Positions 1-15,300 of a DNA stretch of 23,992 bases are shown here, piece by piece. Every line of letters starts with the position of its first letter. The first letter of the stretch is position 1. This DNA comes from a virus: positions 1 through 23,992 of the IMG/VR virus record IMGVR_UViG_3300024346_007022; one strand, given 5' to 3'. The translations under genes and the position numbers were made by a program. The notes under the pieces are model-generated. The model was not told where the DNA came from. It did no database searches and saw only the letters and a program-made list of their open reading frames with translations.

Positions 1-443
1 ACACACTACAGGCTAATGATGAATTAACTTATAACTCACCTGAAGCCGTATATCCTAAGTTCAACGACCTAATGGAAATAACACAACTCACAGATGTCGC
101 TACAGATATGTATGGAGCAGAAGTATTGGTCACCTGTGCCTATTGGCGCAAGGCTAATCAGATACACAACTGGTTCGTCACAAATATTCAAGGCGGTAAT
201 GATAATTGCGGCGATTACTATGTTTCACAAGATAAACTAGCAGAACTAAAAGTTATCTGCGAACACGCACTTGAAACTAAAGACCCAAGCCTATTGCCAC
301 CACAAGAAGGATTTTTCTTTGGTGGAACAGATATTGATGAGTGGTATTGGAACGACCTTACTAATACTATTAATCAATTAGAGCGTATCTTTGCGCTACC
401 CGAAATTGATAAGTTATCATTTTATTATTCATCATCTTGGTAA
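1..443 (+). CDS. Conserved phage protein of unknown function (5' end missing)
   Basis: The reading frame is open from the left edge and ends with TAA at 441-443, so the N-terminus lies outside the window. An internal ATG at 72 exists but has no visible ribosome binding site, and the upstream codons look coding, so I treat the gene as truncated by the window. The visible part has a WRKANQIHNWF stretch, a CGDYYVS segment and a Gly/Phe-rich GFFFGGTDIDEWYW segment. From memory this pattern recurs in small uncharacterised proteins of many phages and plasmids. It has no membrane segment or signal peptide. A promoter for the next gene starts directly after the stop codon. Function unknown. Confidence 0.75.
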   Translation, partial: TLQANDELTYNSPEAVYPKFNDLMEITQLTDVATDMYGAEVLVTCAYWRKANQIHNWFVTNIQGGNDNCGDYYVSQDKLAELKVICEHALETKDPSLLPPQEGFFFGGTDIDEWYWNDLTNTINQLERIFALPEIDKLSFYYSSSW

Positions 444-473
444 TTGACATTTGTCAGTTCCATACCCTATAAT
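444..473 (+). promoter_or_regulatory. Sigma70-type promoter for the 506 gene
   Basis: TTGACA at 444-449, an 18-base spacer, and TATAAT at 468-473. Transcription would start near 480, giving a leader of about 25 bases with a Shine-Dalgarno site. The -35 box directly follows the preceding stop codon. Confidence 0.75.
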
Positions 474-505
474 TAAACTAACCAACAAACAGAAAGAGGG
501 CCCCC

Positions 506-931
506 ATGGACCAGTCAGAAACATCAGTAACAATAGTAAACGCTACAGAAGACTTTCTTAAGTCTCAAATAGCACAAAAGGATGAGCGCATTGCTAATCT
601 TGAATCACACATCTCAACGGTAACCCAGCGCTCCTATACAGAATCTGCAGAACGCAATCGAATGCGTAATGAAATGCAAGAGTGGACCTTGGAAGCAATT
701 GAGAATGGTACATTCGATGAGAGCACTGCACAAGAAATTGCTGACATATGCGGATTTGAATTAACAAAAGAATTCGAAGTTGAAGTAACAGTTCTGTACT
801 CGATGACAATCAATGCACGAGATGAAGAGTCTGCACAGAATGCAGTTCATGATATTGATTTTGATACTGTGCAATACAGTGATGAAAATATCTCATGGTT
901 GTCATCCAGTGTTGACCGTGTAGATATTTAG
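506..931 (+). CDS. Hypothetical acidic protein with N-terminal coiled coil
   Basis: 141 residues. Start ATG 506 is supported by an AAAGAGGG ribosome site. Residues 16-60 are rich in charged and Leu/Ile residues (SQIAQKDERIANLESH) and look like a coiled coil. The second half is acidic and contains a segment (around 88-120) of the form EFEVEVTVLYSMTINA followed by a DEESAQNAV helix, which resembles small ferredoxin-like folds of phage hypothetical proteins. It has its own promoter (444-473) and is followed by a weak hairpin and about 245 gene-free bases, so it is probably monocistronic. Function not recognised. Confidence 0.75.
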   Translation: MDQSETSVTIVNATEDFLKSQIAQKDERIANLESHISTVTQRSYTESAERNRMRNEMQEWTLEAIENGTFDESTAQEIADICGFELTKEFEVEVTVLYSMTINARDEESAQNAVHDIDFDTVQYSDENISWLSSSVDRVDI

Positions 932-946
932 TAGGGGGCTACTAAT

Positions 947-966
947 AGACATACCGAATGTCTTTA
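947..966 (+). terminator. Weak terminator-like hairpin after the 506 gene
   Basis: AGACAT (947-952) and ATGTCT (958-963) form a 6-bp stem with a 5-base loop followed by only a short T run. Plausible but weak. The rest of 967-1116 contains short GC-rich palindromic patches (for example ACACGCCGTGT at 1067-1077) and no gene I can support. Confidence 0.35.
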
Positions 967-1116
967 AACTAGGTTAACGACCTGAGCATTGTCTACGTAA
1001 ACGGCTCACTTTTAATTTCCTTCAAAATTTTGACGTCCCGCCGATCCTGATTTGTCAAGTCGACACGCCGTGTGTTTATGAAATGTCCATTTTGTCCTAT
1101 GTTTAACTATCCCAAT

Positions 1117-1145
1117 TTGCATTTGTCAGACCCCTATGTTATACT
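1117..1145 (+). promoter_or_regulatory. Promoter for the DUF932 gene
   Basis: TTGCAT (1117-1122), a 17-base spacer, and TATACT (1140-1145). The predicted start near 1152 leaves a leader of about 26 bases containing AAAGGAG. Confidence 0.7.
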
Positions 1146-1177
1146 TAAATTATCAATCAACAATAAAGGAGAAAAAA

Positions 1178-2194
1178 ATGGCTCATGAAATCGAAACGCA
1201 AAACGGCGTTGCTTCATTCGCTTCATTTAGAGAACCTGCTTGGCATGGCTTAGGCACAGTTTTCACAGATGAAAAAACTACAAAAGAAATGCTAGACCTA
1301 GCAAATCTTTCTAATTGGAATGTTCGCTTAGAGGATTTGGAAACCCCCTCACATCTAACAAGCGACAAGAACTATCAGTACGTATTGCGTACTAACCCAA
1401 CAGATAATTCACAGACAGACATTCTTGGTGTCGTTGGTGAGCGTTATCATGTAATGCAGAATGAAGATTTATTTTCATTTGGTGATAACATTCTAGACGG
1501 CGGAGGTCGTTGGGAAACGGCTGGCTCAATCAAGGGTGGTCGTGTCGTATTTGGTGCATTAGCATTAGAGCGTGAAACAATCCTTGACCCTAATGGTGTT
1601 GCAGATAAGGTAAAAACTTATTTACTTATCAACACATCACATGACGGTTCTATTGCAATTCAAGCAAGCATAACGCCAGTTCGTGTTGTATGCGCTAACA
1701 CTCTTAACCTTGCTCTTGGCTCACTCAAGAAAAAGAATGGCGTTAAGCAATCATTCAAGATTCGTCACACACAGACCGCAAGCGGTAAGGTTGCAGTTGC
1801 TCGTGAAACTCTTGGTCTTGCACATAAGTACATGGACTCTTTTGATGTTATGGCTAACGCTATGATTCAGAAAGAAGTTAATGCTAAGCAATTCAACGAC
1901 ATCATTCTTGCTGCATACCCTAAGCCAGAAAAAGATTCTAAGGGTGCTTTCAAGAAATGGGAAAACAAGGTTGATGTTATCAATGACATCTACACAGGCG
2001 AGTTTAATGGAATGATTGCTGGTAATGCGTGGGGTGCTTTCAATGCACTAACTGAACGCCTTGATTGGTATCGTTCTGCTCGTGGTGGTTCTAACGAATC
2101 AATCCTTGCAAGCGCAAGCGGATTTGACCCTGCTATCAATGCAGAAAAAAATCGTTTGCTAAAAGTTGTGCAAAATGTTTTGCAGATTGCATAA
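1178..2194 (+). CDS. DUF932 / phage-plasmid-like protein (TIGR03299 type)
   Basis: 338 residues. The start ATG 1178 follows AAAGGAG at a good distance; the frame extends 42 bases upstream but that part lies in the promoter/leader. Recognised family features are the N-terminal FREPAWHGLGT segment (about residues 13-23), the LGVVGERYHVMQNED block (about 85-99), and the SITPVRVVCANTLNLAL block (about 165-181). DUF932 proteins are common on phages, plasmids and near replication/recombination genes; their biochemical role is not established. The length matches the usual 300-370 residues, so the gene looks intact. It is followed by tRNA-Asp, probably on the same transcript. Confidence 0.9.
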   Translation: MAHEIETQNGVASFASFREPAWHGLGTVFTDEKTTKEMLDLANLSNWNVRLEDLETPSHLTSDKNYQYVLRTNPTDNSQTDILGVVGERYHVMQNEDLFSFGDNILDGGGRWETAGSIKGGRVVFGALALERETILDPNGVADKVKTYLLINTSHDGSIAIQASITPVRVVCANTLNLALGSLKKKNGVKQSFKIRHTQTASGKVAVARETLGLAHKYMDSFDVMANAMIQKEVNAKQFNDIILAAYPKPEKDSKGAFKKWENKVDVINDIYTGEFNGMIAGNAWGAFNALTERLDWYRSARGGSNESILASASGFDPAINAEKNRLLKVVQNVLQIA

Positions 2195-2233
2195 ATAAAA
2201 AAATTCCTGAGCAAGAATTAAAACTGCTCGCAT

Positions 2234-2307
2234 GGAGTGTTAGCATAGTTGGTTAATGCGCTACCCTGTCACGGTAGAGATCACGGGTTCAAGTCCCGTA
2301 CACTTCG
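2234..2307 (+). tRNA. trnD: tRNA-Asp (GUC)
   Basis: 74 bases forming a full cloverleaf: acceptor GGAGTGT with ACACTTC (one G-U pair), anticodon stem CTACC/GGTAG, anticodon GTC at 2268-2270, and T stem ACGGG/CCCGT with loop TTCAAGT. CCA is not encoded, so a CCA-adding enzyme is needed. No clear promoter of its own is visible; it lies 39 bases after the DUF932 stop codon. Confidence 0.95.
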
Positions 2308-2343
2308 CAAAATATTTTTAAATAAATTTTTGCGGACGTCGGG

Positions 2344-2359
2344 TGTGATGCATATCACA
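2344..2359 (+). promoter_or_regulatory. CRP-like palindrome
   Basis: TGTGA at 2344-2348, six bases, TCACA at 2355-2359; the match extends to TGTGAT/ATCACA. This equals the CRP/FNR-family consensus TGTGA-N6-TCACA, also used by actinobacterial Crp proteins. Its centre lies about 75 bases upstream of the predicted transcription start of the 2427 gene. Binding is inferred only. Confidence 0.45.
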
Positions 2360-2391
2360 TAACATTTTTGTCAATATAACTTTACGAAGAG

Positions 2392-2420
2392 TTGATATTT
2401 TTCCCGAAACCTGCTACAAT
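2392..2420 (+). promoter_or_regulatory. Leaderless-type promoter for the 2427 chain
   Basis: TTGATA (2392-2397), 17 bases, TACAAT (2415-2420), then six bases and ATG 2427. Transcription would begin at the start codon. Confidence 0.75.
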
Positions 2421-2426
2421 TAATTT

Positions 2427-2591
2427 ATGACCCAAACAATAAGAACGATTGACGAACTAGTCAATGAGATGTATATGGACAACGAGTCCCATCTCGAATA
2501 CATGGAAAATATGAACGGTGGGGATTGTGATTGTGCAATTCACACTACCTTAAACACAATTGTCAAATACTGGTGGGATGAGGAGAACTAA
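2427..2591 (+). CDS. Small acidic hypothetical protein
   Basis: 54 residues, first gene of a chain of overlapping mini-genes. The ATG lies six bases after a TACAAT -10 box and has no Shine-Dalgarno site, which fits a leaderless message. The protein is acidic and predicted mostly helical, with a GGDCDCAIH stretch (Cys at about 36 and 38). Its stop codon overlaps the next ATG (TAATG). Not recognised. Confidence 0.65.
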   Translation: MTQTIRTIDELVNEMYMDNESHLEYMENMNGGDCDCAIHTTLNTIVKYWWDEEN

Positions 2592-2743
2592 TGTTAGGCT
2601 ATACTGAAACAGATATTGCAGTAATGACAGATGCAATGGAAGACGCTATCAAATCAGGTAGACTCTCTGATGAAATCACAGATGGTTTGGAGAAGGCTAT
2701 GTCTTTCTTTGATGGCCTATGGTCAGAAGGGTACTTTGACTAA
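2591..2743 (+). CDS. Small acidic hypothetical protein
   Basis: 50 residues, starting inside the stop codon of the previous gene (TAATG) and ending the same way into the next one. This points to translational coupling. The sequence is acidic and helical (VMTDAMEDAIKSGRLSDEI, then an aromatic FFDGLWSEGYFD tail). Not recognised; could be a small regulatory or anti-host protein, but nothing shows this. Confidence 0.6.
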   Translation: MLGYTETDIAVMTDAMEDAIKSGRLSDEITDGLEKAMSFFDGLWSEGYFD

Positions 2744-2853
2744 TGCATAATCATTATTGGGAATGTGATGATGTACCAGGATATTTTTACTGTGCCTGCG
2801 GAGTTACGGCTATCCATAACAGAGAAACAGGATTGAAGGACATCCATGACTAA
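2743..2853 (+). CDS. Cys/His-containing mini-protein
   Basis: 36 residues, start overlapping the previous stop. The sequence begins MHNHYWEC and contains CAC at residues 17-19, so three Cys and several His could bind a metal. It overlaps the next gene by 8 bases. Part of the tightly coupled 2427-3158 chain. Not recognised. Confidence 0.55.
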   Translation: MHNHYWECDDVPGYFYCACGVTAIHNRETGLKDIHD

Positions 2854-2935
2854 AGAAGATATGATTGTTGTATGTGAACAGGCTATTGATGCCTTAGAAG
2901 AAGTTCGTGCCTATTTAGTTAATCAAGGAGATTAG
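2846..2935 (+). CDS. Hypothetical mini-protein (29 residues)
   Basis: A 29-residue helical acidic peptide (core VVCEQAIDALEEVRAYLV) that starts within the end of the previous gene and stops 1 base before the next ATG. The AAGGA upstream (2837-2841) is a possible ribosome site. Supported mainly by its perfect fit into the chain. Confidence 0.5.
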   Translation: MTKEDMIVVCEQAIDALEEVRAYLVNQGD

Positions 2936-2936
2936 T

Positions 2937-3158
2937 ATGTGGAACTGGACTAAGTATGATTATCTATGTACTGACTGTGATGCTCTTATTGAGATAACTA
3001 CCCTGCAAGATATCAAACAGTGGCGGGGCTGGTGTCCTTGTGGATCTGCTAATATAATTAATATTGGGGTATCAGACGGTAATGCTCCCCTCTTTGAACC
3101 TGTGATAAAGGTCACACCCCCAAAACTTGTCAAAATCAACACCAACCCGTATAATTAA
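2937..3158 (+). CDS. Zinc-ribbon mini-protein
   Basis: 73 residues; ATG 2937 is preceded by CAAGGAG. It contains CTDC (about residues 11-14) and CPCG (about 33-36), the two Cys pairs of a zinc ribbon, with a Trp-rich N-terminus. The C-terminal 25 residues are hydrophilic and Pro/Lys-rich. The end of the gene carries the promoter of the next gene (3127-3155). The specific function is unknown. Confidence 0.7.
   Translation: MWNWTKYDYLCTDCDALIEITTLQDIKQWRGWCPCGSANIINIGVSDGNAPLFEPVIKVTPPKLVKINTNPYN
3127..3155 (+). promoter_or_regulatory. Strong promoter inside the end of the 2937 gene
   Basis: TTGTCA (3127-3132), 17 bases, perfect TATAAT (3150-3155), then seven bases to ATG 3163. Nearly leaderless. 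The whole -35 and spacer are in coding sequence. Confidence 0.8.
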
Positions 3159-3162
3159 TACT

Positions 3163-3318
3163 ATGAACCCAAACACACTTATAGAGTATATAAAGATAAA
3201 CATCATCTCTCTAGAGCAAGACCTAGAAAACGAGGACGGTGCTGATAGCATTGTTCCTTACCTTGAAGGAGCCATTGATGTATCCCGCCATTATTTGGAG
3301 GCAGTAAATGGAGAATAA
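3163..3318 (+). CDS. Small acidic hypothetical protein
   Basis: 51 residues. The frame opens upstream at 3127, but ATG 3163 is preferred because it sits seven bases after TATAAT. The protein is helical and acidic (SLEQDLENEDGADSIVPYL), and overlaps the next gene by 11 bases; its end carries the next gene's GGAGG site. Not recognised. Confidence 0.65.
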   Translation: MNPNTLIEYIKINIISLEQDLENEDGADSIVPYLEGAIDVSRHYLEAVNGE

Positions 3319-3595
3319 CACAACACTAGACCCATACTTAATGAAACTAGTAGAACTAGGTATGGACGGAGCAGACATCCTGCATGGTCACCTTAAAGTT
3401 TTAATGGTTGAGGCAGAAGCAATCCTTGACCGTTGTATTGAAGCAGAGGAGTACTCAGAGGACGCAATGGACTCAATGGCTCGTACTGAGGCCACAGGCT
3501 ATTTTGACGCACTGTCTGAGGTTTATGCCCTAACATATGCTATCGCTTTTGCCAAGGAAGAAGTAAAAAACCGTAAGGAGATTCTTAATGGATAA
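3308..3595 (+). CDS. Hypothetical acidic helical protein
   Basis: 95 residues; start ATG 3308 preceded by GGAGG. Almost entirely predicted alpha-helix, acidic, with a single Cys (CIEAEEY). It overlaps the following gene by 8 bases. Second gene of the 3163-4616 operon. Not recognised. Confidence 0.7.
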   Translation: MENNTTLDPYLMKLVELGMDGADILHGHLKVLMVEAEAILDRCIEAEEYSEDAMDSMARTEATGYFDALSEVYALTYAIAFAKEEVKNRKEILNG

Positions 3596-4106
3596 CTTTA
3601 TTGAACTTACCTTTGATGAATGGTGTGAGCAATACAAGCCAATCAAAAACCATATAGATACAAATGCCTCCTTTGACGGAGAGATGTTTGAGACCTATGG
3701 TGATGAGGTTGCTTTCGTAAAAGAGCAGGACCCTGCTTACATATGGATGTATGGTGACGGTGACGACGGTGGTTCTTATATCTGGAATGGTTGGCACTTT
3801 GTCAATCGAATAGGATACTTTATCACTGATGTACCCTGCCCACCTGACACGACCATTCAGGTCTTGGTCAGTCATAACTGGTACTACTGTGAGAACTGCC
3901 ATGCTGAACTGGAGGACCCTGATAATCTTATTAGAGATTCCTTCCAAGACCACGATTTGGAAAAATGCCCACAATGTGCTACACTTGAAGAAATGACCCT
4001 AGTAGGATTGGAAAACAAAATGGAACAGAACCCAACAAATGAAGTAGAACAAGATGAAGATGAGTATGTGTTACATACATTTGGAGAAAAGACGGTTCAA
4101 TTATGA
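3588..4106 (+). CDS. Hypothetical protein with zinc-ribbon-like Cys pairs
   Basis: 172 residues; start ATG 3588 preceded by AAGGAG. The N-terminal two thirds have an aspartate/glycine-rich YGDGDDGGSYIWNGWHF segment. It then has CENCHAEL (about residues 104-111) and CPQC (about 128-131), a spacing that would fit a four-Cys zinc site. The C-terminal tail is acidic and probably disordered. Its stop overlaps the next start (ATGA). The fold and role are unknown. Confidence 0.75.
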   Translation: MDNFIELTFDEWCEQYKPIKNHIDTNASFDGEMFETYGDEVAFVKEQDPAYIWMYGDGDDGGSYIWNGWHFVNRIGYFITDVPCPPDTTIQVLVSHNWYYCENCHAELEDPDNLIRDSFQDHDLEKCPQCATLEEMTLVGLENKMEQNPTNEVEQDEDEYVLHTFGEKTVQL

Positions 4107-4249
4107 ACGAGTACCAAGTTGAAGTAATCTTTGAACCAACAGGCGATTACATGAATTTTAGATACGAGGCTGAATCAGATAATGAAGAAGACCTCTGCAG
4201 AGAAATATTAAACCAATTGTCAATTGTATCTTTTAAGGTGGAGGAATAA
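4103..4249 (+). CDS. Small hypothetical protein
   Basis: 48 residues, start overlapping the previous stop by ATGA. The sequence begins MNEYQVEVIFEPTGDYMNF, which looks like a beta-strand start followed by an acidic helix. Its end carries the GGAGG site for the next gene, which starts 1 base after the stop. It resembles the C-terminal beta-alpha unit of the 506 gene product only loosely. Not recognised. Confidence 0.65.
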   Translation: MNEYQVEVIFEPTGDYMNFRYEAESDNEEDLCREILNQLSIVSFKVEE

Positions 4250-4250
4250 A

Positions 4251-4616
4251 ATGGGAGCACGGATCAACTATGTATTTAAAGATTCATTAACTAAGCCTTC
4301 AGTTGTACTTTACAGTCACTGGGGTGAGGATGAATGGCAGCGGGACCTAGCAATGGCCCTGCAGCATGCCGAGCCTAGGTGGACAGACGCCCCATATGGT
4401 ACCCGCATGATGATTAGTTATCTTATTCAAGACTCCGTGCTGGGTGAGACAGGGTTTGGAATTTATGCAGTGAATGTGGATGAACACGAGTTTTGGGACA
4501 CCACGGTAGTCATCGACTTCAATACTAATACTATCTATGAACTGGGCTCCGACCTTCATGTTAAATGGGACCTATTTGTAGCAGCCTATCATCCAGTTTT
4601 AGTTGAGCAGATCTAG
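4251..4616 (+). CDS. Hypothetical protein
   Basis: 121 residues. The frame opens at 4224 but ATG 4251 is chosen because GGTGGAGG lies 6 bases upstream and it follows the preceding stop by 1 base. Contains INYVFKDS at the start, HWGEDEWQRDLAMALQHA, and a FWDTTVVIDFNTNTIYEL strand-rich C-terminus. From memory, similar proteins of about 120 residues starting with a G-A-R-I-N-Y-like segment are known in phages and bacteria without an assigned role. Last gene of its operon, followed by a strong terminator. Confidence 0.75.
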   Translation: MGARINYVFKDSLTKPSVVLYSHWGEDEWQRDLAMALQHAEPRWTDAPYGTRMMISYLIQDSVLGETGFGIYAVNVDEHEFWDTTVVIDFNTNTIYELGSDLHVKWDLFVAAYHPVLVEQI

Positions 4617-4641
4617 GTATTGGGTCACCTAGATTAAATAC

Positions 4642-4689
4642 GAGTGGGGCGTAGGGTTCTTGCCTACCTTGCGCCCCCTCACCTTTTTT
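4642..4689 (+). terminator. Rho-independent terminator
   Basis: GAG-T-GGGGCG pairs with CGCCCC-C-CTC, with an inner TAGG/CCTA stem, followed by ACC and six T. It ends the 3163-4616 operon. The 3' arm overlaps the next promoter's -35 box. Confidence 0.8.
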
Positions 4690-4697
4690 GGTACAAT
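4669..4697 (+). promoter_or_regulatory. Promoter nested in the terminator, for the 4715 gene
   Basis: TTGCGC (4669-4674), 17 bases, TACAAT (4692-4697). The start near 4704 would leave an 11-base leader containing GGAGGGA. Confidence 0.55.
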
Positions 4698-4714
4698 AGA
4701 GTAGAGGAGGGACT

Positions 4715-4957
4715 ATGGCTTATTCAGTACGCAGGACATCGGCGCAACACACTAAAGAAACACGAGCAGCGGAGCAGTTAGGCAAACTCCTTACCCAAGA
4801 TTTTGCGGTAGACTTAGAAAGAGTAGGCTATTACTTAGTAAGAAACCTACCCTTAATAAATTACCATAGATTTGAGGTTGTCAGTTTGACAGCAATGGAA
4901 GAGTATGATAAACTTATGTTAGAGATGAAAGGACCCAACAATGGATTTCGCAGATAA
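4715..4957 (+). CDS. Hypothetical protein
   Basis: 80 residues, ATG 4715 with GAGGAGGGA just upstream. The N-terminus is basic and hydrophilic (RRTSAQHTKETRAAEQLGK), followed by a LERVGYYLVRNLPLINYHRFEVV segment and a helical tail. It overlaps the following gene by 17 bases. A small DNA- or RNA-binding role is possible from the basic N-terminus, but no motif shows it. Confidence 0.7.
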   Translation: MAYSVRRTSAQHTKETRAAEQLGKLLTQDFAVDLERVGYYLVRNLPLINYHRFEVVSLTAMEEYDKLMLEMKGPNNGFRR

Positions 4958-5246
4958 AACAGGAGTTCTTGCCCAACTGTGGCTAGACTTCCGTGAGGAT
5001 GAAAAGTTTGAAGCATTTGTAGACTACAATGACATTGGTTTGCCAATGGCATACTATGTGGCACAAGGTTTGGTAAAAGACCTAACGCCACTTGGTGAGC
5101 AGTACATTGAGGAATCATTCCGAATGCTAATAGAATTACTAAACATTACAGAGGATGACATTTCAATCCTGCCTGACCAAAACCTAGGAGCAATCTTAGT
5201 CTTTGCTTACAATAAAAAGAAGGCTAACGAAGCACAAGAGGAATAA
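4941..5246 (+). CDS. Conserved phage hypothetical protein
   Basis: 101 residues, ATG 4941 with AAAGGA upstream, within the end of the previous gene. The N-terminal LAQLWLDFREDEKFEAFV and YNDIGLPMAYYVAQGLV segments (about residues 10-46) match, from memory, a small all-helical protein seen in many actinobacterial and other phages without a known role. A conserved-looking LLNITEDD follows at about 74-81. The downstream 219 bases to the next gene hold a GC-rich hairpin without T run (5260-5283) and the first CAAACC and ATTACGA motifs. Confidence 0.75.
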   Translation: MDFADKTGVLAQLWLDFREDEKFEAFVDYNDIGLPMAYYVAQGLVKDLTPLGEQYIEESFRMLIELLNITEDDISILPDQNLGAILVFAYNKKKANEAQEE

Positions 5247-5430
5247 ACTAATCAGTCATGGGTGGGGGCCTTGCGCCCCTGCCTTGGGCTGGCTGGACGT
5301 CAAATCATATCAAATCGGACATATCAGACAAACCACATTTCCTCAAAACTTTATTACGAAACCTATAAAATTTTCCCAGATTGTACCAAATATTGATTAC
5401 GATGTCAAACCTTCTTTCCCCAAACCATGT

Positions 5431-5459
5431 TTGCCAAACCTTTATATCGGGTGTATAAT
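5431..5459 (+). promoter_or_regulatory. Leaderless-type promoter for the 5466 gene
   Basis: TTGCCA (5431-5436), 17 bases, TATAAT (5454-5459), six bases, ATG 5466. One CAAACC hexamer (5435-5440) overlaps the end of the -35 box. Confidence 0.8.
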
Positions 5460-5465
5460 GATATT

Positions 5466-5696
5466 ATGAGTCCAAGACACTTTGCAGCATATGCTAAAAG
5501 AAATCCAAAACAATATCAGGCATTCTCTGATTCTATGTGGAACTCCTTTGTTAGTGTTACCCATGCTATAGGTTTGTCTAACTATTTTTCTTTCTCCCCG
5601 CCGTTTTTGGACGGGCTTGATCCAGAGGCGATTGGCCGCGAACTTGGCGCGGTATATAACGAATCAACCAAAGAAGAAGAAACTCCTATAGTATAA
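5466..5696 (+). CDS. Small hypothetical protein beside the origin-like region
   Basis: 76 residues. An upstream in-frame ATG exists at 5427, but the promoter architecture selects ATG 5466. The sequence starts MSPRHFAAYAKRNPKQYQAF, basic and aromatic, followed by a Phe/Pro-rich FSFSPPFLDGLDPEAIGRELG segment and an acidic tail. It lies directly upstream of the repeat-rich 5697-6182 region, so a role in controlling it is conceivable, but no DNA-binding motif is evident. Confidence 0.65.
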   Translation: MSPRHFAAYAKRNPKQYQAFSDSMWNSFVSVTHAIGLSNYFSFSPPFLDGLDPEAIGRELGAVYNESTKEEETPIV

Positions 5697-5773
5697 ACAT
5701 ACCAAACCTTTTATCCTGGTTTGTAAAGTTTTTTAAAACTTTTTAAAAAAAAGATTACGAAATTCGAATAAAT

Positions 5774-5797
5774 TTCCCTGAATTTGGGGATTTTTTT
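5774..5797 (+). terminator. Terminator downstream of the 5466 gene
   Basis: TTCCC pairs with GGGGA (one G-U) around a 7-base loop, followed directly by seven T (5791-5797). It would also insulate the origin-like region from upstream transcription. Confidence 0.6.
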
Positions 5798-5823
5798 ATG
5801 GGCAAAATCATGCATATCAGGAC

Positions 5824-5852
5824 TTGACAAACCAAGGTTTTGCATGTATAAT
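5824..5852 (+). promoter_or_regulatory. Orphan consensus promoter in the origin-like region
   Basis: Perfect TTGACA (5824-5829), 17 bases, perfect TATAAT (5847-5852). Transcription would start near 5859 and run across the three direct repeats toward the DnaA boxes. The first ATG (5875) gives only nine codons, so an untranslated or primer-like RNA is possible. Confidence 0.7.
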
Positions 5853-5870
5853 GCCCAAACCTTACAATGG

Positions 5871-5937
5871 GATATGAGGTTTGACAATATGGGGCATATG
5901 TGATATGAGGTTTGAAGGTTTGGGGATATGAGGTTTG
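5871..5937 (+). repeat. Three direct repeats GATATGAGGTTTG
   Basis: Identical 13-base copies at 5871-5883, 5902-5914 and 5925-5937, with start-to-start distances of 31 and 23 bases. Each includes one GGTTTG. The first copy leads into TTGACA at 5881-5886, 17 bases before TATGAG of the second copy, so copies also resemble degenerate promoter elements. Iteron-like or operator-like. Confidence 0.75.
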
Positions 5938-6042
5938 GCCCCAGGCATTACGAAGCCCCTCTATAAAAGCGCTCCCTACTCCACTATCCTCCACAACACT
6001 CCACTTCTACTCTGTCTAATAATATAATCAGTAAGATCTATC

Positions 6043-6162
6043 TGTGGATAAACCTGTGGATAAGTATTACGAAAGGTACATTCTTAACCCTATTTCCTAT
6101 TCAAATGTACCTTAACTGACCAATAGGTACATTGTGGATAACTATTGTTGACATGTGGATAA
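6043..6162 (+). other. Four perfect DnaA boxes
   Basis: TGTGGATAA (reverse complement of the DnaA box TTATCCACA) occurs at 6043-6051, 6055-6063, 6133-6141 and 6154-6162, all in the same orientation. They form two close pairs with start-to-start distances of 12 and 21 bases. The last box directly follows a -35 hexamer, in the spacer of the 6183 promoter. Confidence 0.8.
6073..6133. repeat. Inverted repeat AAGGTACATT plus a third arm
   Basis: AAGGTACATT (6073-6082) and AATGTACCTT (6104-6113) form a perfect 10-bp inverted repeat with a 21-base spacer. AGGTACATT recurs at 6125-6133, where its last base is the first base of the third DnaA box. The set lies exactly between the two DnaA box pairs. 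Confidence 0.7.
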
Positions 6163-6176
6163 CTTTGTGATATGAT
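6148..6176 (+). promoter_or_regulatory. Leaderless-type promoter containing a DnaA box
   Basis: TTGACA (6148-6153), 17 bases, TATGAT (6171-6176), six bases, ATG 6183. The fourth DnaA box fills the first nine bases of the spacer, so DnaA and RNA polymerase would compete here. Confidence 0.75.
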
Positions 6177-6182
6177 GGATAT

Positions 6183-6323
6183 ATGAAACTAAACTATGGC
6201 ACTATGACCTCCAATTACTCTATTGGGGTATATCTGCATAACTGGGGTTATCCGATCAAACACCAATGGGAAATTGGTTTGTATCTTTTTAAGTGGTATG
6301 TGGGAATAGACTTCTTCAAATGA
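6183..6323 (+). CDS. Small aromatic hypothetical protein
   Basis: 46 residues, first gene of a three-gene chain downstream of the DnaA boxes. Leaderless start at ATG 6183. The sequence is rich in Tyr and Trp (YLHNWGYPIKHQWEIGLYLF, WYVGIDFF) without an obvious membrane helix. Its stop overlaps the next start by ATGA. Not recognised. Confidence 0.6.
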   Translation: MKLNYGTMTSNYSIGVYLHNWGYPIKHQWEIGLYLFKWYVGIDFFK

Positions 6324-6451
6324 CATGTACAAAATATGGATGCAACTATGAACTAGACCTTGATGGTCAAGTAACCTGTACTGTATGTGGGGCTATGGAT
6401 GATGACAAGCAGCCTGTGGATATCTTTGAGTTCCAGGTGGATTTCGAATGA
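6320..6451 (+). CDS. Zinc-ribbon mini-protein
   Basis: 43 residues starting at the ATGA overlap with the previous gene. Cys at residues 3 and 8, then CTVC at about 20-23, followed by an acidic tail (MDDDKQPVDIFEFQVDFE). This is the shape of a one-knuckle zinc ribbon. It overlaps the next gene by ATGA. Role unknown. Confidence 0.6.
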   Translation: MTCTKYGCNYELDLDGQVTCTVCGAMDDDKQPVDIFEFQVDFE

Positions 6452-6534
6452 AACCTTTTCTTATCATACTTTTAGGACTATTCATCTTTCTAAACTATAT
6501 GGCCTATCTACAACAAATCCGTATGACTGGATGA
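6448..6534 (+). CDS. Single-pass membrane mini-protein
   Basis: 28 residues, start overlapping the previous stop. After MKPF comes a hydrophobic run (LIILLGLFIFLNYMAYL) long enough to cross the membrane, then a short polar end. Could be a small membrane-acting phage peptide; nothing identifies its target. Its stop lies just before the -35 region of the next promoter. Confidence 0.5.
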   Translation: MKPFLIILLGLFIFLNYMAYLQQIRMTG

Positions 6535-6563
6535 TGACATGACAAACCCTAATGTGATACAAT
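6534..6563 (+). promoter_or_regulatory. Leaderless-type promoter for the 6570 gene
   Basis: ATGACA (6534-6539), 18 bases, TACAAT (6558-6563), six bases, ATG 6570. Confidence 0.6.
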
Positions 6564-6569
6564 AGTCCA

Positions 6570-6851
6570 ATGAGTGATCTAATAACTGGAGATTGGGAAG
6601 CGTTCAAATCTTCATGCCAAGTTGTATTTGAAAACCCTAATCCTAATTGTGGTTATGTCGGACCAGTAGGTTTGTGTGGCATATGTTCTGCTTTAGTTCT
6701 TATGAGTGATACTACACTTGGCTCACATTGGAATTGGCACTATACACACTACGCAAACCACTCAATTTTTGCACCACATTGCCACTCTCCTGTAACTGGA
6801 CTAGTAGTAGGATTACCAGATGGTCCTGGTTGGGATAAGGCATTCGGATAA
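6570..6851 (+). CDS. Cys/His-rich hypothetical protein
   Basis: 93 residues with a leaderless start. Cys occurs at positions 16, 27, 36 and 39 (the last two as CGIC), followed by an unusual His cluster: HWNWHYTHYANH at about 53-64 and HCHSP at about 70-74. The Cys and His pattern suggests a bound metal such as zinc. It ends 2 bases before the next ATG. I do not recognise the family. Confidence 0.65.
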   Translation: MSDLITGDWEAFKSSCQVVFENPNPNCGYVGPVGLCGICSALVLMSDTTLGSHWNWHYTHYANHSIFAPHCHSPVTGLVVGLPDGPGWDKAFG

Positions 6852-6853
6852 AA

Positions 6854-7003
6854 ATGGATAAATTTCAGTCCTCTTGGAGCCTATATGCCAATAAGATTGA
6901 TTCTTATAAGGTAGCCTGTAGCCAATGTAATCAACTATATGTAAAGGCTAATGATGAGCCCTTTATATGTCTTACTTGTACTACTAATAAACGATTACGA
7001 TAG
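6854..7003 (+). CDS. Zinc-ribbon mini-protein
   Basis: 49 residues; ATG 6854 follows the previous stop by two bases. CSQC (about residues 22-25) and CLTC (about 39-42) form a classic zinc ribbon. Its end overlaps the opposite-strand GIY-YIG gene by 9 bases, and the overlap carries one ATTACGA motif (6994-7000). Not recognised beyond the zinc ribbon. Confidence 0.65.
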   Translation: MDKFQSSWSLYANKIDSYKVACSQCNQLYVKANDEPFICLTCTTNKRLR

Positions 7004-7309
7004 GTCCTTTATAGCCTTATTGACCATACGGATCAAACCTCGTCTAGTCACTTTAGACGCATCAAATGTCTCCGTATAACCCCCTTGTGGCATATCTTCC
7101 TTACTGAGGTAATGGCCATATCTCTTAGTAAGGGTTTGTACTACTAGGGATTCTATGTATCTTGCTTGATCCCGTTCGGAAAATGCCCAATACTTGATCA
7201 ATATCCAACCCTTGGTCCTATGGCTTGCAAACCTTCTACCAGACACATCTGATATACCCACCTTGATGGCCTTGTGTATAGGGCTGTAGAGTATGTAGAG
7301 TAGGGTCAT
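6995..7309 (-). CDS. GIY-YIG / T5orf172-like nuclease domain protein
   Basis: 104 residues. The start at 7309 lies six bases after a TATAAT box (leaderless). Motifs fit the T5orf172/Mug113 branch of the GIY-YIG superfamily: YILYSP near the start (residues 5-10), KVGIS (16-20), R at about 25-26, a helix with Glu (YIESLVVQTL, about 51-60), and GYTETF near residues 77-82. Such proteins are stand-alone nuclease-like domains in phages, sometimes mobile or involved in DNA processing. The short length matches single-domain members. It converges on the 6854 gene. Confidence 0.75.
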   Translation of the reverse strand: MTLLYILYSPIHKAIKVGISDVSGRRFASHRTKGWILIKYWAFSERDQARYIESLVVQTLTKRYGHYLSKEDMPQGGYTETFDASKVTRRGLIRMVNKAIKDLS

Positions 7310-7315
7310 GTCTTT

Positions 7316-7343
7316 ATTATACCCTGCCGAAATAGTGTATAAT
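7316..7343. promoter_or_regulatory. Divergent pair of leaderless-type -10 boxes
   Basis: Minus-strand TATAAT at 7316-7321 serves the 7309 gene (six-base gap); plus-strand TATAAT at 7338-7343 serves the 7350 gene (six-base gap). Each -10 falls in or near the other's -35 zone, so the two promoters probably exclude each other. Neither has a good -35. Confidence 0.65.
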
Positions 7344-7349
7344 AGTTAT

Positions 7350-7436
7350 ATGAATACAGAAAAAGCCGAAAAGGCCGTTAAATACTTACTTATCTTAGTT
7401 GTTGCCGTTGTTCTTATTACAGCAATTCTTGCTTGA
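7350..7436 (+). CDS. Single-pass membrane mini-protein
   Basis: 28 residues with a leaderless start at ATG 7350. A Lys/Glu-rich N-terminus (MNTEKAEKAVK) is followed by a hydrophobic helix (LLILVVAVVLITAILA) up to the end. The stop codon overlaps the -35 box of the next promoter. Similar in design to the 6448 mini-protein but without sequence similarity. Confidence 0.6.
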   Translation: MNTEKAEKAVKYLLILVVAVVLITAILA

Positions 7437-7461
7437 CATATCCTGCTAAATATGAGATACT
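7433..7461 (+). promoter_or_regulatory. Leaderless-type promoter for the 7468 chain
   Basis: TTGACA (7433-7438), 17 bases, GATACT (7456-7461), six bases, ATG 7468. The -35 includes the previous stop codon. Confidence 0.75.
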
Positions 7462-7467
7462 TAAGGT

Positions 7468-7611
7468 ATGACCAATCCAGAAATATCTGATTTACTCAAC
7501 AAAGAATCATATAGGGTTTGGGACACTGCCAAGGTGATCAAGAACCAAGACTACCATGATGGTTTGGTTAAAGGTTTAAAGATGGCTGCTCAGTATGTGG
7601 CTAAACTATGA
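7468..7611 (+). CDS. Small basic helical protein
   Basis: 47 residues, first of a long chain running to 8685. The sequence MTNPEISDLLNKESYRVWDT continues into a basic helix (KVIKNQDYHDGLVKGLKMAAQYVAKL). It overlaps the next start by ATGA. Not recognised. Confidence 0.6.
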   Translation: MTNPEISDLLNKESYRVWDTAKVIKNQDYHDGLVKGLKMAAQYVAKL

Positions 7612-7814
7612 TCAATATGGAAATACCAGATCCATTTCAAACCTTTGTAACCAACAAGTATGCCAACGCTAAGGGTGCTGTGTATGATTTCTTTGCTAGA
7701 GAATGGCATATGAAGTGTGGATGCTGTAAGGAAGATTTGTTTGCTCCATCCCGCAAAATATTAACAAAAATTAGGTTGTTCCACACCCGTAATGAATGCT
7801 TAGGAGGATACTGA
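7608..7814 (+). CDS. Cys-containing hypothetical protein
   Basis: 68 residues, coupled by ATGA to the gene before and by TGATG to the gene after. It contains CGCC (about residues 37-40) and a later single Cys (63), with basic residues around them (APSRKILTKIRLFHTRNEC). Possibly a zinc-binding fold. Not recognised. Confidence 0.6.
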   Translation: MINMEIPDPFQTFVTNKYANAKGAVYDFFAREWHMKCGCCKEDLFAPSRKILTKIRLFHTRNECLGGY

Positions 7815-8044
7815 TGAAGAAGATAGAAAAGACCAACATCCTGCCATTACGATGGATAGGAAACTTTCTTGGAGAGTATGCTGGAAATCATATCCTTAAG
7901 GCTGTTTACTTAGATGAAGATGGCGACCTAGGATTTCGCTATAGATATCATGCTTTTATGTGGAAATATCTTAACAAACCATACTCATGGTGGGGAACAT
8001 ATTACGAATTTGATTTAAAAAGCCTCAAGAAAGATAAAAAGTGA
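7814..8044 (+). CDS. Small aromatic hypothetical protein
   Basis: 76 residues. The frame opens at 7796, but ATG 7814 is chosen because it follows AGGAGG and overlaps the previous stop as TGATG. The protein is rich in Trp and Tyr (WKYLNKPYSWWGTYYEF) and has a DEDGDLGFRYRYHAF segment suggesting beta strands. Two ATTACGA motifs lie within it in different frames. Not recognised. Confidence 0.65.
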   Translation: MKKIEKTNILPLRWIGNFLGEYAGNHILKAVYLDEDGDLGFRYRYHAFMWKYLNKPYSWWGTYYEFDLKSLKKDKK

Positions 8045-8397
8045 ACAAAGAAGAGCGCAACAGGATTCAGCGTTTATGGTATGAGCGCAACAAAGAGATG
8101 AGACTGCTTCAGATTAAGGCCAGAGTTTCAAAAAATAGGCAATATGTTATTGACTACAAGACTGAGCATTCTACCTGTACTGACTGTGGTATAGATTATC
8201 CTTGGTACTCCCTTGATTTTGATCATCTCCCTGAATTTAAAAAGTCCTTTCCTTTATCCGTTGCTGGCTCAAAAGGAAGAAGCATTGATAGCATAAACAA
8301 AGAGATAGCCAAATGTGAAATAGTCTGTGCTAACTGTCACAGACACAGAACTGCTACTAGAAAGGCTAAGTCAAGAAATGAACTGTCCAGTATGTAA
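8041..8397 (+). CDS. HNH endonuclease-like protein
   Basis: 118 residues. Translation probably starts at GTG 8041, overlapping the previous stop as GTGA. A basic N-terminal helix is followed by the zinc and catalytic elements of a phage-type HNH domain: CTDC (46-49), DFDH (59-62), and CANCHR (96-101) preceded by KCEIV. Free-standing HNH genes of this kind act as homing endonucleases or as packaging/restriction cofactors; which applies here is not visible. A second protein of the same type is at 15631-15903. Confidence 0.8.
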   Translation: MNKEERNRIQRLWYERNKEMRLLQIKARVSKNRQYVIDYKTEHSTCTDCGIDYPWYSLDFDHLPEFKKSFPLSVAGSKGRSIDSINKEIAKCEIVCANCHRHRTATRKAKSRNELSSM

Positions 8398-8485
8398 CTT
8401 ATCTAAGGATTCAGAATGGTTTTGGGATGCTCATCAAACGATGAGTGATGGTAAGGTGTGGTGCGTAAATGCCAAGAGAACCTAA
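8378..8485 (+). CDS. Cys-pair mini-protein
   Basis: 35 residues, beginning MNCPVC and containing one more Cys near residue 30. It starts inside the end of the HNH gene (20-base overlap) and overlaps the next gene by 17 bases. Its position in the chain and the CPVC pair support it as real, but evidence is thin. Confidence 0.5.
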   Translation: MNCPVCNLSKDSEWFWDAHQTMSDGKVWCVNAKRT

Positions 8486-8588
8486 GATTACGAAGATGGA
8501 TTGGCGTTCACTGGGCTATTGGCCTGTCTGGAAAGATGGAAAGAAAGTATGGGTTCCTAAAGACAAGGTAAAAGATTCAAATGGCTAG
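8469..8588 (+). CDS. Small basic Trp-rich protein
   Basis: 39 residues: MPREPKITKMDWRSLGYWPV followed by WKDGKKVWVPKDKVKDSNG. Basic, with four Trp, and overlapping both neighbours. One ATTACGA motif (8487-8493) lies within it. Short Trp/Lys-rich proteins of this style are common in phages; no function is known. Confidence 0.5.
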   Translation: MPREPKITKMDWRSLGYWPVWKDGKKVWVPKDKVKDSNG

Positions 8589-8685
8589 AACCATTGTGTG
8601 CCCTATATGTAAAAAAGAATGGGACTTTAGAGTAGGCTTTGCTCACGAGAGTTTATATAAGCATATGAAGGCAGATCACCGATAG
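8581..8685 (+). CDS. C2H2-type zinc-finger mini-protein
   Basis: 34 residues. CPIC at 7-10 is followed by Phe/Leu hydrophobic positions and HMKADH at 28-33, giving a single C2H2-like zinc finger. ATG 8581 overlaps the previous gene by 8 bases. It is the last gene of the 7468 chain and is followed by hairpins. A single finger could bind nucleic acid or protein; the partner is unknown. Confidence 0.6.
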   Translation: MARTIVCPICKKEWDFRVGFAHESLYKHMKADHR

Positions 8686-8726
8686 TGCCCGTTTAGGGCA
8701 TAGAGTGGTTTAAGAACCTCTATTTT
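8686..8726 (+). terminator. Terminator after the 7468-8685 chain
   Basis: A small hairpin TGCCC/GGGCA (8686-8700) is followed by a second stem, TAGAG-tg-GTT with AACCTCTA (8701-8721), ending in TTTT. It separates the chain from the opposite-strand gene that ends at 8748. Confidence 0.55.
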
Positions 8727-12239: not shown

Positions 12240-13340
12240 ATGAATATAGTAGTCCCAATGTCTGGGCTTGGTTCCAGGTTTCGTAATATAGGAATAGAAA
12301 TTCCAAAACCTTTGATTGTTGTAGAGGGCAGACATATAGTAGAACACGCTGTAGACTCTCTTGGCATAGAAGGACAGTATATTTTTATAACAAAAAAGTA
12401 TGATAAAAAAGAATATAATGATCAGTTAACCAAAATACTAAAAGACTTAGTCCCAGATTGTATAGAGATTCAGGTTGATAGAGAGCAATACGGTGCTGCA
12501 GATGCATGTCTATACGCAGAAAAATATATAGACAATGAGCAGCCACTAATTATAACTAACTGTGATCAACTTCTAAGGTGGGACGCACAAGAATTTTTAG
12601 ATGATTTAGATAGTAAAGATCCAGATGGTGCAATATCAATTTTTAAATCCAATGACAGCAAAAATAGTTTTGCCATAATTAAAGATGAAAGCGTTATAGA
12701 ATTAGCAGAGAAAAAAGTTATTAGTGATAATGCTCTTATGGGTATTCACTACTGGAAGCATGGCAAAGATTTTGTATCATCAGCCAAAAAACTACTCACC
12801 GAATACAAGACAATAGGTCTAAAGGAATGTTATATATCTAATACCTATAACTATCTTATAGAGGATGGTATGTACATAATGCCTTTCTATATGCAGAAAA
12901 ATTCTTTTATCCCGCTTGGAACACCTGAAGATGTAAACATTTATGAGGCTAAGGTAAAAGAATTTTATACAGAAAAGCCAAAGACAATATTCTGTGATAT
13001 TGATGGAACCATAATAAAGCATGCACATAGGTTTAGTCATATTGGCAAAGAGGATCCAATTGATCTAGATGGTGTAATAGATAAATTTAATGAGTGGGAC
13101 TCTAAAGGTCATAAAATAATTCTAACAACTGCAAGAAAAGAATCTGCAAGATATATAACTGAAAAGCATCTAAGTGATTTAGGCTTTTGCTGGGACTATC
13201 TTCTTATGGGTATGACAAGTGGAACAAGACTATTAGTCAATGATAAACTACAGGAAATTGACGATGACAGAGCAATTGCAATTAATGTTATTACAGACTC
13301 AGGTTTTAGTTCTGTTGATTGGAGTCAATACGATCTATGA
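12240..13340 (+). CDS. Sugar nucleotidyltransferase fused to HAD phosphatase
   Basis: 366 residues, ATG 12240 with AAAGGAG upstream. Residues 1-240 form a GT-A-type nucleotidyltransferase: GLGSRF (9-14), PKPL (23-26), TNCDQ (106-110) and the family-typical LGTPED (226-231). It would couple a sugar phosphate to a nucleotide. Residues 248-350 form a HAD domain: FCDIDGTII (251-259) supplies the nucleophile Asp and TTAR (296-299) motif II. A kinase/phosphatase step coupled to NDP-sugar formation is plausible, as in heptose pathways. Similar fusions occur in phages and capsule clusters. It overlaps the cupin gene by ATGA and heads a four-gene operon. Confidence 0.85.
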   Translation: MNIVVPMSGLGSRFRNIGIEIPKPLIVVEGRHIVEHAVDSLGIEGQYIFITKKYDKKEYNDQLTKILKDLVPDCIEIQVDREQYGAADACLYAEKYIDNEQPLIITNCDQLLRWDAQEFLDDLDSKDPDGAISIFKSNDSKNSFAIIKDESVIELAEKKVISDNALMGIHYWKHGKDFVSSAKKLLTEYKTIGLKECYISNTYNYLIEDGMYIMPFYMQKNSFIPLGTPEDVNIYEAKVKEFYTEKPKTIFCDIDGTIIKHAHRFSHIGKEDPIDLDGVIDKFNEWDSKGHKIILTTARKESARYITEKHLSDLGFCWDYLLMGMTSGTRLLVNDKLQEIDDDRAIAINVITDSGFSSVDWSQYDL

Positions 13341-14721: not shown

Positions 14722-15176
14722 AAATAATAGCCCACAGAGGAAATATAGACGGACCAGATCCAAAAAATGAGAATAACCCTTTGTATATTGGTTTAGCAAT
14801 TAAACATGGTTTTGATGTAGAAGTTGACATATGGGTAGTTAATGATAATATATTCCTTGGCCATGACAGCCCTCAGTATGCCGTTAATAAGGCCTACATA
14901 GCCGATATAGGCCTCAATGCATGGTTTCACTGTAAGAACCTGGGTGCATTAGAATACCTCAAAGATAATTTTATTAGTCTTAATTATTTTTGGCATCAAG
15001 AAGATGATTTTACTCTAACTAGTCAGGGATATATATGGACATATCCAGGGAAAGATATAAATAAAAACTCTATTGTCGTTATGCCTGAAAGAGTTAATAA
15101 TTCTATACCTGATAAGATTATTCCATATGGGGTATGTACAGATTTTTGCTTACAGTTATCTAAAAGCATTAAATAG
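14718..15176 (+). CDS. Short glycerophosphodiester phosphodiesterase-like protein
   Basis: 152 residues, starting at the ATGA overlap with the GT61 gene. GDPD motifs: AHRG (5-8) with the catalytic His/Arg, ENNPLYIGLAIKHGFDVEVD (about 20-39) giving the acidic metal ligands, and FLGHDSPQY (about 48-56) with the second His. It lacks part of the usual 230-250-residue TIM barrel, so it is either a reduced phage form or a non-catalytic relative. It could cleave a phosphodiester in a glycan or lipid. Its end overlaps the opposite-strand 15169 gene by 8 bases. Confidence 0.8.
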   Translation: MKIIAHRGNIDGPDPKNENNPLYIGLAIKHGFDVEVDIWVVNDNIFLGHDSPQYAVNKAYIADIGLNAWFHCKNLGALEYLKDNFISLNYFWHQEDDFTLTSQGYIWTYPGKDINKNSIVVMPERVNNSIPDKIIPYGVCTDFCLQLSKSIK

Positions 15177-15300
15177 TTTTTTTATTCTTTACTTCATATG
15201 GTGCAATTTTAGATTTAATTCGACCATCTTTATATAGTCTTACAATCCAGCCATCTTTAATTTGAACTGGGTTAAATGCTGATGCTTTTTTCTTTGGCAT
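15169..15300 (-). CDS. Small basic hypothetical protein
   Basis: 43 residues: MPKKKASAFNPVQIKDGWIV, then RLYKDGRIKSKIAPYEVKNK. It is very basic and strand-rich (WIVRLYKDGRIKSKI) and resembles phage mini-proteins with an SH3-like strand pair. It starts 2 bases after the stop of the upstream 15303 gene and is the last gene of the minus-strand block. AGGAC in the preceding gene end may act as a ribosome site. No function known. Confidence 0.65.
   Translation of the reverse strand: MPKKKASAFNPVQIKDGWIVRLYKDGRIKSKIAPYEVKNKKTI

Follow-up and report, generated by a model that had tools for sequence, protein, structure and literature searches.

What is signalled by ATTACGA, a heptamer repeated on one strand of an uncultured phage genome, and what reads it? 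The 24-kb stretch analysed here (the window) is IMG/VR virus record IMGVR_UViG_3300024346_007022, 23,992 nucleotides long, which carries tRNAs, a WhiB-like gene and a DUF932-like gene (phrog_1221). Exact matching across the whole window gave the same count as the first-pass annotation, nine copies on the + strand at 5353–8493 and none elsewhere on that strand (Table 1); the sole − strand copy lies at 12281. Dinucleotide composition predicts about 1.1 copies per strand over the whole window. Ranked by clustering in the window, ATTACGA is the top of all 7-mers, and the Markov-background check proposed for it upheld the cluster: its score (−log10 p) is 13.2, whereas the best scores from 60 first-order Markov simulations have their median at 6.6 and never exceed 8.4. 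Five of the nine copies (sites 1 to 5) lie no more than about 0.7 kb from an origin-like element at 5947–6063, and the remaining four are scattered out to +2.5 kb of it.

Using the DUF932-like protein as search query, 80 viral contigs were returned. Nearly all contigs extending past the DUF932-like gene have several + strand copies around a conserved noncoding element, on which 52 loci were anchored once near-duplicates had been taken out. Between −1 and +5 kb of the element these relatives contain 394 + strand and 12 − strand copies of ATTACGA, with + copies outnumbering − copies in all 52. If the neighbouring bases are also required to fit the flanking preference (not A before, A or T after), the counts are 348 and 7. 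The same + bias was seen in 14 genomes or near-complete genomes, which mostly have 2–12% of their 14-mers in common. Beyond the cluster ATTACGA is sparse and roughly balanced by strand, with a weak + excess to about +55 kb. The excess at +5 to +55 kb (60 versus 21) was not used, since some of it appears to come from shared orthologous sites, for example near RecA. A uniform distribution, equal strand use and loss in relatives were all tested, and none of them occurred.

The arrangement of the copies is itself conserved. Class A is a pair or triplet near −700, with a spacing of mostly 34–39 bp; class B is mostly a single site near −264 or −340; class O, [CG]ATTACG[AG], lies 93–97 bp before the first DnaA box in 52 of 52 relatives; and class D comprises scattered sites from 0 to 5–10 kb past the element. 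Class A and B sites stand in the extended context ATTACGA-N8-AAATTTTTCCCC, whereas class D sites consist of the core alone. Three TCCAC repeats and an AT-rich stretch, kept in most relatives, separate the class O site from the DnaA boxes. The motif takes the form BATTACGAW in the freshwater group and WTTACGA in the wider family. In the genes that follow the DUF932-like gene, the relatives have a further, smaller + strand group of ATTACGA at −4.5 to −3 kb (29 + versus 1 −), which was not seen in the Streptomyces phages described below.

Table 1. Positions of the ATTACGA copies and neighbouring elements in the window
Feature	Position	Strand	Remarks
Predicted inner part of long terminal repeat (TR), probable pre-early block	1..5982	+	right edge predicted at 5946–5985
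ATTACGA site 1, class A	5353..5359	+	relatives have a class A pair/triplet at about −700/−665
ATTACGA site 2, class A	5396..5402	+	43 bp past site 1
ATTACGA site 3, class B	5754..5760	+	just 5' of terminator-like hairpin 5775–5790
ATTACGA site 4, class O	5947..5953	+	candidate position of the physical genome end
Three TCCAC repeats, 10-bp period (5980, 5990, 6000)	5979..6006	+	kept in most relatives; alternative candidate for the physical genome end, about 5982
AT-rich conserved stretch with TCAGTAA	6015..6042	none	
Tandem DnaA boxes, TGTGGATAA at 6043 and 6055	6043..6063	−	
ATTACGA site 5	6066..6072	+	adjoins second DnaA box
Additional DnaA boxes	6133 and 6154		
ATTACGA site 6, class D	6994..7000	+	convergent end of a short + strand ORF and a − strand GIY-YIG-like gene
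ATTACGA site 7, class D	7846..7852	+	CCA-TTA-CGA within LPLRW gene
ATTACGA site 8, class D	8001..8007	+	TAT-TAC-GAA, also within LPLRW gene
ATTACGA site 9, class D	8487..8493	+	ATT-ACG-AAG

Sites 7, 8 and 9 confirm that coding copies occur in all three frames, as had been stated in the first-pass annotation. When synonymous codons were permuted with proteins and codon usage held, 38.5 ± 5.1 sense copies were expected in genes at 0 to +6.5 kb and 123 were seen; the corresponding numbers are 81 seen versus 21 expected at −5 to 0 kb and 0 versus 31 at −15 to −5 kb, all of which are effect sizes rather than independent trials because the loci are kin. The proposed look at synonymous sites in relatives thus found the motif to be kept through codon choice. 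Single genes gave the same picture: at the motif, CGA and ACG are retained although they are rare (6% of Arg and 4.5% of Thr codons, respectively), and the codons around it vary. At site 7 the motif with the rare CGA is present in 12 of 19 distinct LPLRW orthologues, and at site 9 the rare ACG is present in 10 of 11 distinct orthologues. Since codons are retained in all three frames, selection acts on the nucleic acid and not on the protein, and we conclude that ATTACGA is a real, selected signal. The codon-shuffle count for − strand ORFs (20 versus 3) was set aside because most such ORFs are short and doubtful, and only the five sites in long − strand genes were counted. A codon shuffle of the Streptomyces phages gave 5 versus 1.9, a sample too small to be useful.

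The window is an uncultured freshwater relative of Streptomyces phages of the family Stanwilliamsviridae. The nearest annotated phages are those of Streptomyces cluster BE in this family (about 53% identity in the DUF932-like protein); between genome G002 and cluster BE phages, identity is 55% for TerL and 52% for DnaE. Cluster BE phages have direct TRs of about 11 kb, and the ends of BE1 phages have been read from a build-up of read starts together with doubled coverage (PMC5764925). We oriented the Streptomyces phages with the DUF932-like gene on the + strand. In Riptide, four TTTACGA copies occupy the last 750 bp of the TR and five more WTTACGA copies the 3.5 kb past it, all on the + strand. 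Across nine Streptomyces phages the last kilobase of the TR contains 39 + and 0 − copies of WTTACGA, and the next two kilobases past the TR end contain 7:0 and again 7:0 (14:0 in total); farther than 2 kb past the TR end no + bias was found in these nine phages. The recorded TR ends abut a conserved CATTACACAC, which has ATTAC in common with the motif. A DnaA box lies 60–62 bp past the TR end in seven of the nine phages and at 49 bp in EGole; in Tomas the array is present and no exact DnaA box was found. The DnaA boxes of the region that had been called origin-like are real, but that label is only partly right: eight of the nine Streptomyces relatives have their boxes 49–62 bp past the TR end.

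Compared with the freshwater motif, the junction array of Stanwilliamsviridae has the same core on the same strand relative to DUF932, a class A pair of similar spacing and adjoining DnaA boxes. It differs in that the core is mostly TTTACGA, the DnaA boxes are inverted and the distal sites end at about 2 kb. Strand and position relative to DUF932, together with the DnaA boxes, place the 52 freshwater loci and the nine Streptomyces phages in one class of junction array, for which we infer the freshwater TR from the Streptomyces relatives, the freshwater assemblies being collapsed or partial. By this analogy the right end of the window's TR should be near the O site (5946/5947) or at about 5982, the latter estimate placing it 61 bp to the left of the first DnaA box. 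In freshwater phages the genes around the distal sites are mostly co-directional with the motif, whereas in Riptide four of the five distal sites lie within genes of opposite direction. Because the Riptide genes past the TR run opposite, motif orientation follows the DNA end and not transcription. Same-strand WTTACGA copies on both sides of the TR/unique junction therefore indicate a polar signal that is read at the level of DNA and linked to the genome terminus. The first-pass annotation had argued for a signal at the DNA or RNA level: the DNA part holds, the signal being selected and conserved in relatives, while an RNA-level signal was judged unlikely given that the Riptide sites run against the genes. 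The literature searched gave no account of the motif. A match to Streptomyces phage Cursive, 86% at the DNA level, at first resembled the conserved element but proved to be the HNH gene (window 8300–8351). In a separate observation, Riptide has 12 copies of CCGGGGCGG in its left terminal repeat (804–8716) and none elsewhere in the 121 kb scanned.

The DNA to the left of the array has a character of its own. CRP-like operators, TGTGA-N6-TCACA, number 67 in the 154 kb that make up the −13.5 to −2.5 kb block of the 14 genomes and 2 in their other 1345 kb; control palindromes number 0 in the block. The operators thus mark a distinct block, probably a pre-early one, immediately left of the array, and their distribution suggests host-CRP-controlled pre-early promoters limited to the presumed terminal repeat. 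Confinement of these operators to the left of the array is a second line of evidence that agrees with the predicted TR edge, and positions 1 to 5982 of the window are assigned to the predicted TR on account of both the Streptomyces relatives and this confinement. The window itself has CRP/GlxR-like palindromes at 2344 and 3101. Repeats of CAAACCT/AGGTTTG occur on both strands at 5406–5940, some of them overlapping the −35 region of strong sigma-70-type promoters (5431–5459, 5824–5852), and look like operators of another regulator. In three genomes (G002, G013 and G017), another two DnaA boxes stand in tandem at about −9 to −13 kb, with a CRP-like palindrome beside them in G002 and G013; these boxes may lie close to the left TR edge. 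An Rfam search found no RNA.

Similar arrays are present at the same junction in phages of other families. T7 carries CCTAAAG exclusively on one strand, inside and beyond its TR, so that here too a one-strand heptamer stands on both sides of the TR edge. However, the T7 sequence is another one, the TR is 160 bp long, and the array is compact and is also found at the right end; ATTACGA copies are spread over kilobases. In SPO1 the first 180 bp past the TR end contain five direct repeats of ATTCAAAACTA, all on the same strand, which resemble the array described here in strand use and in their position at a TR end but are compact and confined to the unique side. The closest layout is that of T5, in which GTGCRAATCCGAY occurs on one strand only, together with a DnaA box: the annotated injection-stop block contains six copies, and another four lie beyond the TR end. 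One-strand repeats across the TR end, the DnaA box and the gene layout are all shared with the phages studied here, as is the placement of repeats and DnaA boxes at the inner end of a long TR. T5 differs in its repeat, GTGCRAATCCGAY, and in having only one exact copy more than 0.3 kb past the TR end in that region; T5 is not known to have the WTTACGA motif in common with these phages. A published description of the T5 injection-stop signal lists repeats, inverted repeats, palindromes and DnaA boxes (PMC13250531). The D13 recombination-endonuclease gene of T5 contains two further copies of its repeat on the same strand, of which one is exact and the other has a mismatch (AY543070, 78936–78963). 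Since T7, T5 and SPO1 all have arrays at this junction, the design is not limited to phages with two-step entry. The repeat sequences are unrelated or loosely similar across families, and we therefore speak of a shared design and not of homology. Finally, two satellites have been described that carry their own terminase and are without key replication genes (PMC10690885), and the WTTACGA array is absent from both. One of them, MiniFlayer, was seen to have a one-strand array of six AATGCGA copies beside a DnaA box (14889–15255), and a single TTTACGAATG in the same region.

Because one-directional repeats span the inner TR edge in Streptomyces phages, the array probably marks where the genome is cut and packaged, or where cell entry pauses. 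We tentatively prefer, with slightly less than even confidence, a packaging role in which polar sites across the TR/unique junction would be read most likely by the small terminase, TerS, and would position the genome-end cut. A site for a packaging protein, one of the functions listed in the first-pass annotation, is thus the best supported of them. It fits best because phages have the array whether or not an entry pause is known for them, because the recorded end carries the same ATTAC core, and because the satellites, with a terminase of their own, have no array. A phage protein, most likely TerS acting through an N-terminal helix-turn-helix, would bind the repeats on the concatemer. The bound protein would fix the direction and position the genome-end cut near the O site or the TCCAC repeats (about 5946–5985), and the DNA left of the cut would then be packaged as the right genome end. 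The distant class D sites might keep the complex in place on the unique side or load it there again, which is the weakest step of the scheme. TerS is a candidate reader whose binding to the repeats we infer: it is 42% identical between the freshwater and Streptomyces groups, and its N-terminus is predicted to be of the helix-turn-helix type in a single-sequence model with a mean pLDDT of 82, its Pfam helix-turn-helix match being below the cut-off. At P1 pac and similar terminase sites, short repeats flank the packaging cut and are read by the packaging enzyme; those sites are compact and serve headful packaging, in contrast to the long TR with fixed ends considered here. Against a packaging role, the class D sites of freshwater phages reach 5–10 kb into unique DNA, farther than known terminase sites, and the DnaA boxes have no obvious packaging role. 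The far class D sites are not well explained by any of the models. The O site is also just a candidate for the end, which could instead be at the TCCAC repeats.

The main rival, by virtue of its close match to the layout of T5, is an injection stop: the TR with its pre-early genes would enter first, and repeats and DnaA boxes would pause entry until pre-early proteins release the DNA. In both cases TR genes on the + strand are followed by a noncoding block at the inner TR end, then by one-strand repeats spanning the end, a DnaA box and genes on the − strand, and the confinement of CRP-like operators suggests a distinct pre-early block. However, class D sites lie past the stop point, no evidence of two-step entry was found in Stanwilliamsviridae, and arrays are also present at this junction in T7 and SPO1, neither of which is known for a T5-like stop. 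We regard an injection stop as a limited possibility. A dual track, in which the kilobase-wide, codon-embedded array would encode both direction and stop for genome translocation, the same sites aligning the terminase as packaging finishes and halting the incoming DNA at the inner TR edge during ejection, is somewhat less probable still; to our knowledge, T5-like two-step entry has so far been unreported in actinobacteriophages.

Two tandem DnaA boxes adjoin an AT-rich stretch, an arrangement kept even by very diverged relatives, and they could belong to a replication origin at which an initiator would bind the repeats, host DnaA would bind the boxes and the AT-rich stretch would open. We consider this less likely than packaging or an injection stop, given that Tomas keeps the array without an exact DnaA box, that the satellites described as without key replication genes have no WTTACGA array, and that the sites, unlike iterons, are spread over kilobases. 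Asymmetric, oriented sites in early genes, some beside promoter-like or terminator-like sequence, might also be stoperator-like operators of a transcription regulator. Such a regulator was not identified, and sites of the L5 type are oriented with transcription; in Riptide site orientation is independent of it, with distal sites running against the genes, and we hold operators to be improbable. Chi-like sites acting on nucleases that enter from the genome end are about as improbable, or slightly more so: the class A and B sites, 0.2–0.75 kb from the right end, do have the orientation expected of Chi read from that end, but neither the class D sites nor the left end agrees with this, and the binder would need to be common to very different hosts. 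A KOPS-like, genome-wide polarity marker for a translocase, suggested in the first-pass annotation, is largely refuted and deserves next to no weight. Polarity is strong, and an FtsK-like translocase is annotated in the Streptomyces relatives Riptide and Cursive. Nevertheless, the motif is local, lying within a few kilobases of one junction, with no mirrored set and no bipolar switch, and neither an FtsK-like translocase nor the FtsK_SpoIIIE domain (PF01580) was found in ten freshwater relatives.

The mechanism of second-step transfer in T5 has been called poorly understood (PMC13250531). A motif common to uncultured lake phages and cultivable Streptomyces phages, alike in polarity and placement, offers concrete sites and a candidate reader with which to approach how phages with long TRs define their ends and how T5 halts entry at the inner TR end. 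It may also yield a sequence rule for predicting, in metagenome contigs, the physical genome ends that are lost in assembly.
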